IMG/VR virus record: IMGVR_UViG_3300031706_000063
Coordinates: 1-20,742 of that record
Source: a virus
DNA length: 20,742 nucleotides
Reading direction: 5' to 3' (one strand)
The notes beneath the pieces were generated by a model. The model saw only the letters and a list, made by a program, of their open reading frames with translations. It made no database searches and had not been told where the DNA came from. Every line of letters begins with the position of its first letter. The first letter of the stretch is position 1. Positions 737-4,403 of this stretch are shown here, one piece after another. The position numbers and the translations under genes were made by a program.

Positions 737-1114
737 CTAATTGTTTTTATCAACTTCCATAATCCAACGTGCCAAATAGAACTGAGCCTTTTTCAAGTCT
801 TCTAACGGCTTCTTTTTATACGCCATTCGCCAACTGTATTTAATCAAATTGCCCTTGAGATACCCGCAAAATGCTTCCTCAGTCATTGACGCTTTAATCG
901 CCTCGATACACTCAATGCCACCCTTGTTATAGTGGGTTGGGTTATTTACTGCGTCTTCTCCTTCTTGTGATCCCAACTGAGCAGCTTCTTGCTCTGCGGG
1001 AACCGACCACGCTTCTAATCCAGTCTTTTCATTGGGAGTAACTTCAATTGCAGGGAATTGCTTTTGCAATCGATCCCAATCTGCGGGTGTCGCTTGATTT
1101 AATCTAATAGACAT
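737..1114 (-). CDS. DUF3310 family protein (T7 gp1.7-like)
   Basis: The 125-residue protein carries a C-terminal DUF3310 domain at about residues 55-120. Its hallmarks are NNPTHYNKGGIECIEAI, then the GYLKGNLIKYSWR segment and a Lys-rich helix ending in FYLARWI. This family includes T7 gp1.7, a nucleotide kinase; whether this member has the activity is unknown. The first 55 residues are a less conserved linker-like region. The start at 1114 is supported by AAAGGAAA about 8 bases upstream on the leftward strand. It is the last gene of the leftward replication/modification operon, 16 bases after the methyltransferase stop, so a role in nucleotide metabolism or DNA replication is plausible. Confidence 0.8.
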   Translation of the reverse strand: MSIRLNQATPADWDRLQKQFPAIEVTPNEKTGLEAWSVPAEQEAAQLGSQEGEDAVNNPTHYNKGGIECIEAIKASMTEEAFCGYLKGNLIKYSWRMAYKKKPLEDLKKAQFYLARWIMEVDKNN

Positions 1115-1130: not shown

Positions 1131-2234
1131 TTAATCTTTAATTTGGTTGTTTAAGGTTGTCCAGGCTTTTGCGGCTGTTTGCGGCACTACTCCGTTTCCC
1201 AAGAGCCTAAGTCTGTCCACTCTGTTGGTACTCCCATCAACCACTCGACCCAATCGGGGTTCAACTTCCCACTGCCCTTGTTGATTATCATGACTGCATT
1301 TGGCAGTTGTCCCATTTGCGCTCTTTTCCCTTGCGCTAATTTTGCAAGGGTTGCTTTGTAACCATTCGCCCCCTTGTAATCTCTTGCCGAGGGAGTCGGC
1401 CAGTTCATTTTCTCCGCTGTCTCCACGGCATCTCTCAGCTTCGCTCCGTACCAAGGACTGTTCGGGTCTTTGGAGTGCTTCGATCTCCACTGACCGTTCA
1501 CCAGTTCTGTCGGATAACTCCCCCCCGTCACATCGAACACTGTCGCGGTCGGCCAATTCTGCGGAGGCTCCATTTTTACTTGCATACTTAAGTTGGATGC
1601 TCTGGTCTTTCCTATGTTCTTGGGGTTGCCTGACGCTATCATTCTGGCTCGATACTGATCGTATGGTTCCTCGACCTCCATCACTCTCGGAGTCAGCCAA
1701 GATATAGACTCTTTTTCTCTGGTGAGGAGCGCCAACTTCACGCGCTGAGAATATTCCCCACGCTGTTTTATAACCAAGGCTTTCCAGGTCGCTAATGACT
1801 TCTCTGAGTCCGAGGGTGATGTGTCCTTCGACGTTTTCAAAGAAGCACCGAACAGGTCTAACTGCTCTGACGATTTCTCTGATGTGAGGCCAGAGATGTC
1901 GGGGGTCTTCCTCTCCTTTTCGCTTTCCGGCGGCTGAGAAAGGTTGACATGGATAGCCGCCAGTAAGGAGGTCAACTCTGTCTCGAAACGGTTCCACTGG
2001 CAGGGTTTTAAGATTCGACCAAATAGGTGCGGGTAAAAGCTCCCCTGCTTCCATCTTGTTTGCCAAACGCGCAATCGCGTAGGCTTCGATTTCGACAAAA
2101 GCGACTGTTCGATGTTCAAACCCGGCAAGCTCAAGTCCTCTCTCGATGCCAGCGTATCCGCTGCATAGCGAGAGGACAGTTGGTAATTCTTTGGTAATAT
2201 CCACATTTTTATTTCCTATATCTTTTAGATTCAT
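1131..2234 (-). CDS. DNA (cytosine-5-)-methyltransferase
   Basis: This 367-residue C5-methyltransferase transfers a methyl group from S-adenosylmethionine to cytosine in phage DNA, probably for protection from host restriction. Motif I (LCSGYAGIERGLELAGF, about 23-39) binds SAM. Motif IV has GGYPCQPFS with catalytic Cys96. Motif VI is FENVEG (132-137), motif VIII is HQRKRVYIL (171-179), and motif X is LGNGVVPQ (345-352). Residues about 180-330 hold the target-recognition region, unusually low in order, with repeated LAD units near 179, 227 and 278. The start overlaps the polymerase 3' end by 26 bases, and AAGG is only weakly placed, so translational coupling is likely. The region is also open in the +1 frame for 339 codons (1187-2206). 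Confidence 0.93.
   Translation of the reverse strand: MNLKDIGNKNVDITKELPTVLSLCSGYAGIERGLELAGFEHRTVAFVEIEAYAIARLANKMEAGELLPAPIWSNLKTLPVEPFRDRVDLLTGGYPCQPFSAAGKRKGEEDPRHLWPHIREIVRAVRPVRCFFENVEGHITLGLREVISDLESLGYKTAWGIFSAREVGAPHQRKRVYILADSESDGGRGTIRSVSSQNDSVRQPQEHRKDQSIQLKYASKNGASAELADRDSVRCDGGELSDRTGERSVEIEALQRPEQSLVRSEAERCRGDSGENELADSLGKRLQGGEWLQSNPCKISAREKSANGTTAKCSHDNQQGQWEVEPRLGRVVDGSTNRVDRLRLLGNGVVPQTAAKAWTTLNNQIKD
1187..2206 (-). CDS. Overlapping +1-frame ORF nested in methyltransferase gene (339 aa)
   Basis: On the same strand as the methyltransferase but shifted +1, a 339-codon ORF runs without a stop, entirely inside that gene. It has its own start context, TATAGGAAATAAAAATG, with GGAA six bases before the ATG. 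The product is Trp- and Pro-containing, with three spaced units: WLTPRV (170), NWPTATV (217) and NWPTPSARDYKG (268). It ends in LNPDWVEWLMGVPTEWTDL (315-333). I recognise this C-terminal motif from phage proteins found with cytosine methyltransferases. Residues about 117-165 (DLFGASLKTSK, then SEKSLATWKAL) also look like real protein. So long an open alternative frame with an internal repeat and a good ribosome site suggests genuine dual coding. A frameshifted or artefactual conserved frame remains possible. The function is unknown. Confidence 0.6.
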   Translation of the reverse strand: MWILPKNYQLSSRYAADTLASREDLSLPGLNIEQSLLSKSKPTRLRVWQTRWKQGSFYPHLFGRILKPCQWNRFETELTSLLAAIHVNLSQPPESEKERKTPDISGLTSEKSSEQLDLFGASLKTSKDTSPSDSEKSLATWKALVIKQRGEYSQRVKLALLTREKESISWLTPRVMEVEEPYDQYRARMIASGNPKNIGKTRASNLSMQVKMEPPQNWPTATVFDVTGGSYPTELVNGQWRSKHSKDPNSPWYGAKLRDAVETAEKMNWPTPSARDYKGANGYKATLAKLAQGKRAQMGQLPNAVMIINKGSGKLNPDWVEWLMGVPTEWTDLGSWETE

Positions 2235-4104
2235 AGCCTTCTGCTTCCACTGGTAATCCGGTTGCCCAGTCGGGCAATACGCACATCAACTTTTCAAAAT
2301 CCATCAGCGACCCAAAACCATGTGGCACATCAGCCACGATCTCATCGTGAACGTGCAGTACAACGGGGTAGTTGGCAGCTTCAAGTCTGAGAATAGCTTC
2401 AGCCAAAATGTCGCGGGCCACGGCTTGCGTGATCGATTGAACAAATGAGCCGCCGTATCCTTTTATTTCGTCCCACCTGTGGGTGTGGTTGTTCATACCT
2501 TTATAGATAATATCCGCGCCTCGATCCCCTTGGCGAAGCACAGCTTCTGGAAAACTAAGAACTCGACCGCTCGGCAACTTGAAAAGGAGATCGCCTTTGA
2601 CCATTTTAAAAACACCCATCGCCGCCTCATATTTCTGGCCGTCATAACTAATCGCGTTTCGGGCAGCGCGTTCAACATCTACCCACAATTTAACTATTTT
2701 GTGATTAGCGTCTCGCCAGTCGTTGCGAATAACTAGCGCCTCTTTTTCTGTCACCTCTGTGCCATATGCTTCAGACATTTTCTGAAATGCGCGAACGCCC
2801 CCTTGGTATCCCAACGCCAACGTCGCAACTTTTCCAACAAATCGTTGATCGTAATTAATCTTTTCATAATCAACATTGAACATGCGCGAGGCTGTTGTCT
2901 TGTAAATGTCTTTGCCATCATGAAACGTCTTGATGACCGCATCGTCTCCGGCTAACCACGCCAGAACGCGGGCTTCGATTGACGCGTAGTCCGAAACGAT
3001 TAGTCGGTTTCCGTCGGATGCCATCAGCATCCCACGCAGGCAACTGCTCAAAGACTCCATAGGTTCGCCGTCGATCATCGCCGGATCGCGATGCTCCATT
3101 TGTTGGATACACGCGTCAACATCATCAATTGTTGGACGCGGTAAGTTTTGCGGATTGACGTGCCGGCCTGCCCATCTTCCTGTGCTTGCCCCGTGGTACA
3201 TGAGACAGCCGTGAACGCGTCCGTCGGTTCCGAGGCAATCAAGCATCGCTTGATACTTTTTTGTCGATGATCGGGAGAGTGACTGTCGAATGCTCAGAAA
3301 CTCTTTGATTTTCTCAGGGCATTTGGGGTCTTCGAGCGCCGCCGATATGGCCGCTTTGTCATAGCTTGGGAGAGGGTATCCCTGCTCCGCTGTCCACTGC
3401 ATAGCCTTGGCGCGTGAACCGGTGGAGTCGATGTAACCTTCCGTGAGTATCTTTACACGGTTATTCATAATCAGTGAGTGTCTCTCGATGATGACAAGGC
3501 CATTCTCAATAGACTTTCGATCAAGCCGAACGCCGCGCCAATTTATTAGCTGATCAGCTTCCCAAACTTGGCCTTCATTTATTGTGAGGCGTCGAAGCCG
3601 CAGGCGTATCTCGCGCTCGGCAACCACGTCCTGTAGGCAATAATCATAAAGTTCTTGGTATAGAAATAAGTCTTTTACGCGTTCACCCCGATACGGTTTG
3701 CAGCATCGTTGAATAAGAATCTTTCCGCGTTTGCTTTTCGCGTCATCCCCTGAGAGGCCGAGAGCCTCGCCACATTTACCGAGGGCGCGTGGGTACGCTT
3801 GTGCGGCTGCAAGGGCTGCAGTGTCGCGCCACTGGGATATCGGAACCGGTTTCCATTTTAGAACCAAGTTCCAAATGGACATTTCAAAGAAGCTGTTCCA
3901 AGCCCAAACCGTTGCACCGGCATCAATTAAATCTAGGAGTCTTTGCGGCGCGGGCATGTCCGGCGTCCACAGTTCCGGTTCTGCTCCGTCCAACATCCAG
4001 GCCATGCATAAAACTTCGGTGGTTGAGTGGTCAGCGTAAGCGTAGGCTCCGGCTTTGCGAATATCGCATTCGCTGTATGTTTCAAAATCAAGTGATATGT
4101 TCAT
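2209..4104 (-). CDS. Family A DNA polymerase with 3'-5' exonuclease domain
   Basis: This is the phage replicative DNA polymerase, Pol I type, 631 residues from the start chosen here. The proofreading domain shows exo I SLDFET (Asp6, Glu8), AWNSFFE (68-74) and exo III YCLQD (155-159). The polymerase domain shows motif A VSDYASIEARV (about 370), motif B with KVATLALGYQGG (about 424-436) and motif C HVHDEIVAD (about 583-590). An ATG at 4140 is in frame, but the start at 4104 overlaps the upstream stop as ATGA, typical of coupled genes, and leaves the exo domain intact, so I prefer it. The 3' end overlaps the methyltransferase start by 26 bases. Its compact size, without a 5'-nuclease domain, is typical of phage enzymes. 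Confidence 0.95.
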   Translation of the reverse strand: MNISLDFETYSECDIRKAGAYAYADHSTTEVLCMAWMLDGAEPELWTPDMPAPQRLLDLIDAGATVWAWNSFFEMSIWNLVLKWKPVPISQWRDTAALAAAQAYPRALGKCGEALGLSGDDAKSKRGKILIQRCCKPYRGERVKDLFLYQELYDYCLQDVVAEREIRLRLRRLTINEGQVWEADQLINWRGVRLDRKSIENGLVIIERHSLIMNNRVKILTEGYIDSTGSRAKAMQWTAEQGYPLPSYDKAAISAALEDPKCPEKIKEFLSIRQSLSRSSTKKYQAMLDCLGTDGRVHGCLMYHGASTGRWAGRHVNPQNLPRPTIDDVDACIQQMEHRDPAMIDGEPMESLSSCLRGMLMASDGNRLIVSDYASIEARVLAWLAGDDAVIKTFHDGKDIYKTTASRMFNVDYEKINYDQRFVGKVATLALGYQGGVRAFQKMSEAYGTEVTEKEALVIRNDWRDANHKIVKLWVDVERAARNAISYDGQKYEAAMGVFKMVKGDLLFKLPSGRVLSFPEAVLRQGDRGADIIYKGMNNHTHRWDEIKGYGGSFVQSITQAVARDILAEAILRLEAANYPVVLHVHDEIVADVPHGFGSLMDFEKLMCVLPDWATGLPVEAEGYESKRYRK

Positions 4105-4403
4105 ATTTTGGGATTTACTCTGATTGATTTCGACATCCACAAATTCACAAAAGCTTGATGATCAGCAATCTCTGCTCGTCTGGTTGCGCGTTTTGTCGAA
4201 GCATGTCGTCGAGGCTGTAAATCGGAGTCAGATATAAAAACACTGACCAAACCCCTAGCACGATTACGCTTCATTCCCATCCGATTTTTCAGAAGGTCAT
4301 AAGGAATATCTGCCAGTTCAGCTATATCTTTCACGACGACAACCGTGTTGCTCAGAGACTCAAATCGAGTTCCGATGTAAGGGTAAGACAAAGATGCTTT
4401 CAT
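4101..4403 (-). CDS. Small HTH-like hypothetical protein (100 aa)
   Basis: The 100-residue basic protein starts at ATG 4403 with GGAG about six bases upstream and ends in an ATGA overlap with the polymerase. Residues about 24-50 (VKDIAELADIPYDLLKNRMG) resemble a helix-turn-helix in which DIAELADIPYDLL is the first helix and turn. The second half is rich in Arg and Lys (QPRRHASTKRATRRAE), consistent with nucleic-acid binding. No family is recognised with certainty. Its place between the DUF2815 gene and the polymerase, behind an operator-like palindrome at 4448-4464, suggests a replication accessory or local regulator. Confidence 0.65.
   Translation of the reverse strand: MKASLSYPYIGTRFESLSNTVVVVKDIAELADIPYDLLKNRMGMKRNRARGLVSVFISDSDLQPRRHASTKRATRRAEIADHQAFVNLWMSKSIRVNPKI

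Follow-up and report, generated by a model that had tools for sequence, protein, structure and literature searches.

The analysed stretch of DNA (the window) is a viral contig of 20.7 kb (20,742 nucleotides) with SU10-type portal, capsid and adaptor genes. On its minus strand, an intact methyltransferase ORF (alpha, 2234-1131, 367 aa) encloses a second ORF (beta, 2206-1187, 339 aa). The offset of 28 nt between alpha and beta places the latter in the +1 frame, where it is without internal stop. Both ORFs were found as described in the first-pass annotation, as were the sequence GGAA six bases 5' of the beta ATG and two sets of repeats, LAD at alpha residues 179, 227 and 278 and WLTP, WPTA and WPTP at beta residues 170, 218 and 269. 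The features of the locus are the following.

2214-2217, minus strand: AGGA, putative shared Shine-Dalgarno sequence, 7 nt 5' of the ATG
2202-2206, minus strand: ATGTG overlapping starts, beta ATG at 2206-2204 and alpha GTG at 2204-2202 (precedent in PMC9841429)
1131-2204, minus strand: alpha, putative C5-cytosine DNA methyltransferase catalytic subunit, 357 aa from the GTG at 2204, with motifs I-VIII and X (PF00145, 2e-33)
1944-1952, minus strand: alpha motif IV, PCQ with the catalytic cysteine, alpha residues 95-97
1830-1838, minus strand: alpha motif VI, ENV, alpha residues 133-135
1698-1721, minus strand: alpha motif VIII, QRKRVYIL
1187-2206, minus strand: beta ORF, 339 aa in the +1 frame of alpha, putative subunit with recognition zone and motif IX
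1700-2206, minus strand: N-terminal half of beta (aa 1-169), over the alpha catalytic core, both frames constrained, ending in RGEYSxRxKLA
1556-1699, minus strand: beta cassette 1 (WLTPRVMEVEEP..., family 18), also the first cassette of locus L004
1403-1555, minus strand: beta cassette 2 (WPTATVFDVTGG..., family 2, 21 members)
1265-1402, minus strand: beta cassette 3 (WPTPSARDYKGA..., family 1, 24 members)
1214-1264, minus strand: beta motif-IX-like segment, LNPDWVEWLMGVPTEWT
1161-1205, minus strand: alpha motif X, LLGNGVVPQTAAKAW, with the beta stop inside it

A DNA polymerase A homologue (2209-4140, minus strand) is located upstream. Its stop codon (2211-2209) lies inside the alpha/beta start region, so alpha and beta may be translationally coupled to the polymerase in the window and in loci L007 and L010. 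Directly after alpha, on the same strand, a DUF3310 protein is encoded (737-1114, minus strand). Among the window proteins scanned, none was identified as a restriction endonuclease, and the alpha/beta methyltransferase therefore looks like an orphan phage enzyme. In the related locus L049, a second, weak methyltransferase-like match (1886-2200, 29% identity to alpha 19-126) was seen roughly 1 kb upstream of the two nested ORFs.

The openness of the beta frame was compared with chance expectation. Upon shuffling of the synonymous codons of alpha, 9.5 stops were expected in the beta frame; each of the 5000 shuffles contained at least one stop, and the outcome was the same with codon usage taken from the adjacent polymerase gene. 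The +1 frames of other window genes (300-756 codons) contain 7 to 49 stops. Viral contigs were searched with beta, giving 416 relatives of which 80 were kept, and with alpha, giving at least 598. From both searches 79 non-redundant loci with a complete alpha were taken, the window included. Beta was open over at least 80% of alpha in all of these. In the remaining alternative frame inside alpha, the longest run without a stop was mostly 30-60 codons. As the alpha search is unbiased towards beta, the open frame in the relatives is not a selection effect. The open beta frame is not due to chance, an explanation ruled out by the absence of stop-free shuffles together with the 79 open relatives.

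Selection on the two frames was assessed from the codon register, in which the second position of beta falls on the third position of alpha. Third-position differences of alpha were 0.22-0.37 in the catalytic overlap versus 0.589 in the non-overlapped tail, where this position is the most variable. Variability in the recognition zone is highest at alpha position 1, which corresponds to the beta wobble position, and identity is higher in beta (0.37-0.42) than in alpha (0.27-0.30). Divergence at four-fold synonymous sites of alpha was 0.14-0.38 in the overlap and 0.641 in both the tail and the DNA polymerase; at the four-fold sites of beta in the recognition zone it reached 0.56. For the three syntenic loci alone, the alpha four-fold values were 0.19 (catalytic), 0.07 (recognition zone) and 0.56 (tail). 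Position and four-fold divergence thus indicate constraint on alpha and beta alike across the catalytic core and motif IX, and on beta in the region between them. The alpha residues between core and motif IX form a polar linker, of which 74% are polar, charged or G/P. With beta codons shuffled synonymously in this linker zone, 4.8 alpha stops are expected per locus (L105 and L106 excluded). Alpha continues to motif X in 77 of the 79 loci, which is the fair measure of its openness, the input of the linker shuffle having ended at the alpha stop.

The earlier proposal that two proteins are made from one DNA segment is hereby strongly supported at the level of sequence, both frames being free of stops and subject to purifying selection in scores of relatives. 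Freely evolving synonymous sites and stops in homologues had been named as the observations that would speak against it; the synonymous sites are constrained and beta is open in 79 of 79 loci, so that the proposal was not refuted.

Interruptions of either frame were seen in a few relatives. Locus L159 (outside the 79; upstream of 2530) has ATGTAG at the start, a TGG to TAG change by which both the beta Trp2 and the alpha GTG start are lost. In L023, also outside the 79, the same change affects beta codon 220, the Trp opening the second cassette. L105 (3173-3175) and L106 carry a TAA in alpha within the cassette zone, with beta open over 341 aa and motif X still in frame downstream. These TAG changes and the alpha stop could be decay, suppression or sequence error.

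The alpha codon at 2204 is GTG, overlapping the beta start, in all 79 loci. Beta itself starts with ATG in 70 loci, GTG in eight and TTG in one, giving ATGTG or NTGTG at one position throughout. The constancy of the GTG proves nothing by itself, since it is dictated by the Met-Trp of beta. In 30 of the loci, an in-frame alpha stop is present just upstream, and motif I is retained only if alpha starts at the GTG, the next start being found at codon 27-52, past this motif. The other 49, including the window, have another possible upstream alpha start, which is an ATG in 20. The window ATG at 2234, from which the methyltransferase had previously been read, is ACG in the syntenic locus L010, whereas the position of GTG 2204 is kept in 79 of 79 loci. 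A start at 2234 is consequently doubtful, and from these comparisons alpha probably starts at GTG 2204 within ATGTG.

In 62 of the 79 loci (78%) the start is preceded by a Shine-Dalgarno match of 4 nt or more, compared to 29% at random positions. The DtoStart value was mostly 12-14 (12 in 13 loci, 13 in 16 and 14 in 16). In E. coli reporters, AUGUG initiates both frames at a DtoStart of 12/14 and longer spacing favours AUG (PMC9841429). The spacing in the window, hand-counted at 13/15, would favour beta, which is suggestive under an E. coli rule that may not be that of the host.

Alpha has the characteristics of a C5-cytosine methyltransferase, with motifs I, IV (PCQ), VI (ENV) and VIII and a SAM-dependent fold, and its predicted structure resembles M.HaeIII and M.HhaI. 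Its match to PF00145 covers motifs I-VIII only (profile positions 2-182 of 324; 2e-33) and, among the PADLOC methyltransferase matches listed, all end by about residue 194. A recognition domain and motif IX in one chain with the catalytic motifs were not found in alpha. This one-chain arrangement is usual, not universal, and split enzymes count as C5 methyltransferases. In the AlphaFold model, residues 179-336 nearly all have a pLDDT below 50 and no folded small domain is predicted, so the assumption that the methyltransferase frame suffices for a whole enzyme is probably wrong.

For beta, sequence searches of Pfam, NCBIfam, PADLOC and the PDB gave no match, and profile A1 gave chance matches only against the PDB. 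AlphaFold modelled beta alone with low confidence (mean pLDDT 54, pTM 0.22); the model had no match among solved structures, VIA-align returning short helical matches only. The C-terminal peptide recognised in the first-pass annotation is the motif-IX-like end LNPxWVEWLMGxPxGWT. Aligned by eye, the segment LNPDWVEWLMGVPTEWT presumably corresponds to motif IX of M.HhaI (LxPxxxxxxMGxP). The phage DNA methyltransferase family phrog_1008 was found to be divided over the two frames, with positions 36-281 in beta and 288-317 in the alpha C-terminus with motif X, its order running from beta into alpha motif X. The beta stop is fixed at four codons beyond the alpha LGN in 55 of the 79 loci. When alpha motifs I-VIII, the beta cassettes with motif IX, and alpha motif X of the window were joined in silico, the PF00145 match reached profile position 294, against 168 for a shuffled control; the gain in score was small (119 versus 115.5-116.6 bits), which makes this a weak test. 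For the joined chains of L073 and L014 the match fell short of motif IX. Beta most likely carries the target-recognition region, as judged from these sequence features. Of the roles suggested before for the second protein, specificity fits best, with motif IX and a modular zone in beta; inhibition is unsupported, and frameshifting is unlikely given that beta has its own conserved start.

From the RGEYS motif to motif IX, beta consists of one to five units opening with WxTP, mostly 26-53 residues in length. The repeats noticed earlier in beta are these cassettes, of which the alpha LAD repeats are a reflection in the other frame. The pattern [LV]xx[AQVDT][VA] occurs in 152 of 208 cassettes versus 26 in shuffles. 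The cassettes were assigned to 26 recurring families by the stricter of two clusterings, the looser one having merged unlike families via long unsplit units. These families make up 59 architectures among the 79 loci, with one family having many left and right neighbours. At least 32 changes of the final cassette were counted on a tree built from the catalytic DNA. The catalytic DNA of the window is 96% identical to that of L001, with arrays of 18-2-1 versus 14-1-2-8, while cassette 1 shares 94% DNA identity with that of L004 and the catalytic regions 78%. These comparisons indicate that cassettes are exchanged combinatorially between relatives, both frames staying open. The cassettes would set the methylation specificity.

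These observations were weighed under several explanations. Beta could be a by-product, alpha being a complete single-chain methyltransferase whose +1 frame is open through composition or codon bias. Alpha does have motifs I-VIII and X, and by itself it scores as a methyltransferase, but synonymous shuffles never left beta open and the strong synonymous-site constraint is confined to the overlap. Moreover, beta is the conserved frame in the recognition zone and has a conserved start, and alpha is predicted to be without a folded small domain. On the coding question this reading is already refuted, and its overall probability is close to nil. A single fused protein, made by a programmed +1 shift from alpha after motif VIII into the cassettes and motif IX, would account for the order of the segments (I-VIII in alpha, recognition and IX in beta) and for the longer PF00145 match of the joined window chain. 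It is extremely unlikely nonetheless, as the N-terminal half of beta, needless for a shift, has a conserved start and is constrained throughout; with motif X back in the alpha frame, a second shift would also be required.

That beta is a separate functional protein outside the enzyme, for example one that regulates or inhibits the methyltransferase, is very unlikely too. The pairing of alpha and beta in this family is deduced from sequence, which leaves room for such a protein; the motif-IX-like end, the split of phrog_1008 over both frames, the missing small domain of alpha and the precedent of M.EcoHK31I argue against it. A frameshift fusion and an unrelated accessory protein were thus considered and set aside, in view of the conserved beta start, motif IX and the phrog_1008 split. 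The last alternative accepts two proteins, with alpha read from an upstream start (ATG 2234 in the window), beta alone from 2206, and AUGUG as the shadow of Met-Trp. ATGTGG is indeed automatic once beta begins with MW, and 49 loci offer other in-frame candidates. The 30 loci in which an in-frame stop leaves GTG as the sole start before motif I, the ACG in L010 and the ability of both frames to initiate at AUGUG in E. coli (PMC9841429) make this possibility rather improbable.

One C5 methyltransferase made as two overlapping polypeptides, of the M.EcoHK31I kind, is the best explanation of the whole, and a likely one. The sequences show that both frames are coding and constrained, that the motifs are divided between them, that ATGTG is conserved and that cassettes are exchanged. 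Ribosomes bound at one Shine-Dalgarno sequence would initiate at AUG for beta or, two bases on, at GUG for alpha within AUGUG. Alpha would form the catalytic domain, with motifs I-VIII followed by a disordered linker and motif X; beta would contribute the small domain that alpha lacks, its WxTP target-recognition cassettes being arrayed ahead of motif IX. Both proteins are presumed to be made and to pair into an active orphan methyltransferase that methylates DNA and has a protective role, probably shielding the phage genome from host restriction. By swapping cassettes as DNA blocks open in both frames, the phages could alter the sequences methylated. Whether this amounts to a dual-frame system for evolvable, multispecific anti-restriction, in which an array of one to five cassettes is exchanged in blocks and co-translated with the catalytic subunit from AUGUG, we regard as an evenly balanced matter. 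If true, the locus would represent a natural overlap that is large, abundant and under strong constraint, with two enzyme subunits of more than 330 residues each on the same bases. It would also be a natural candidate for AUGUG dual initiation, and the swapping of cassettes open in two frames would be an unusual constraint on modular evolution.

The +1 nesting was also found in distant relatives, in phages of Paenibacillus, Acinetobacter, Escherichia and Synechococcus and in plasmids of Sphingomonas and Paenibacillus, and phrog_1008 was present in 12 of 12 records tested. Starts of the ATGTG type occur in the clade of the window and in some distant relatives (L162 and L166); in others the starts are further apart. 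Both frames are annotated in K1G and fTaEco01, the inner one as 'Mte8-like'. In the Sphingomonas plasmid (L164; NZ_CP032828.1, 712795-713886), the annotation lists beta as a hypothetical protein and has no entry for the catalytic methyltransferase frame. As gene callers usually keep one frame, with the catalytic one omitted in this plasmid, many phage methyltransferases may be half-annotated.

Several known systems share parts of this organization. BsuMI is a split C5 methyltransferase encoded by two genes in tandem; enzymes of this type, as named in phage annotation, have catalytic and recognition parts on two polypeptides, as alpha and beta probably do. In M.EcoHK31I (YGGCCR), the smaller polypeptide is read from a different frame inside the gene for the larger one, and beta likewise lies in another frame of the alpha gene. 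Of the motifs of this two-polypeptide C5 methyltransferase, I-VIII and X belong to the larger chain and IX to the smaller (PMC3404938). Compared by published description, the division is the same here, with I-VIII and X in alpha and IX in the smaller beta. Beta differs in its length of 339 aa, by which it spans nearly all of alpha, in starting 2 nt before the probable alpha start, and in its modular WxTP zone, the recognition domain of M.EcoHK31I having been placed in the larger subunit (PMC3404938). In M.AquI, catalytic and recognition parts are also on two polypeptides, with motifs IX and X both in the smaller subunit (PMC3404938). Alpha and beta do not follow that pattern, having IX in beta, X in alpha and nested genes.

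The C5 methyltransferases of Bacillus phages SPR and phi3T are orphan, multispecific enzymes in which several modules for target recognition separate motif VIII from motif IX. The literature on such enzymes includes works by Behrens (1987) and Trautner (1996). The WxTP cassettes are tandem exchangeable modules in the same place; the SPR and phi3T enzymes are single chains read in one frame, whereas the cassettes here are in a second frame, that of beta, and on a second polypeptide. An overlapping AUG and GUG each open a long frame in the window, as in an AUGUG ambiguous start. According to the 2022 E. coli study, Thermus rnpA-rpmH was the sole bacterial ambiguous start described before its own cases (PMC9841429). 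Like the window, the AUGUG/GUGUG sites of that study (Kohl et al. 2022, PMC9841429) and rnpA-rpmH have overlapping or adjacent starts, one Shine-Dalgarno sequence (putative in the window) and two frames. The second-frame peptides of the E. coli AUGUG cases are short, in contrast to two products of more than 330 aa here, with both frames under selection.

Literature searches for nested methyltransferase frames gave nothing specific, and the main text of the GeneTack paper has no such case. Nested methyltransferase frames as such are already annotated in some phages: a frame ending in LMGxPxGWT is nested in +1 in Escherichia phages K1G ('C-specific methylase' and 'Mte8-like protein') and fTaEco01 and in Paenibacillus phage Diva ('g49 internal gene'). 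In these three, the inner gene is annotated 88-184 nt downstream of the methyltransferase start, without ATGTG overlap. The probable AUGUG-overlapped alpha start and the combinatorial WxTP array in beta are the features that look new.
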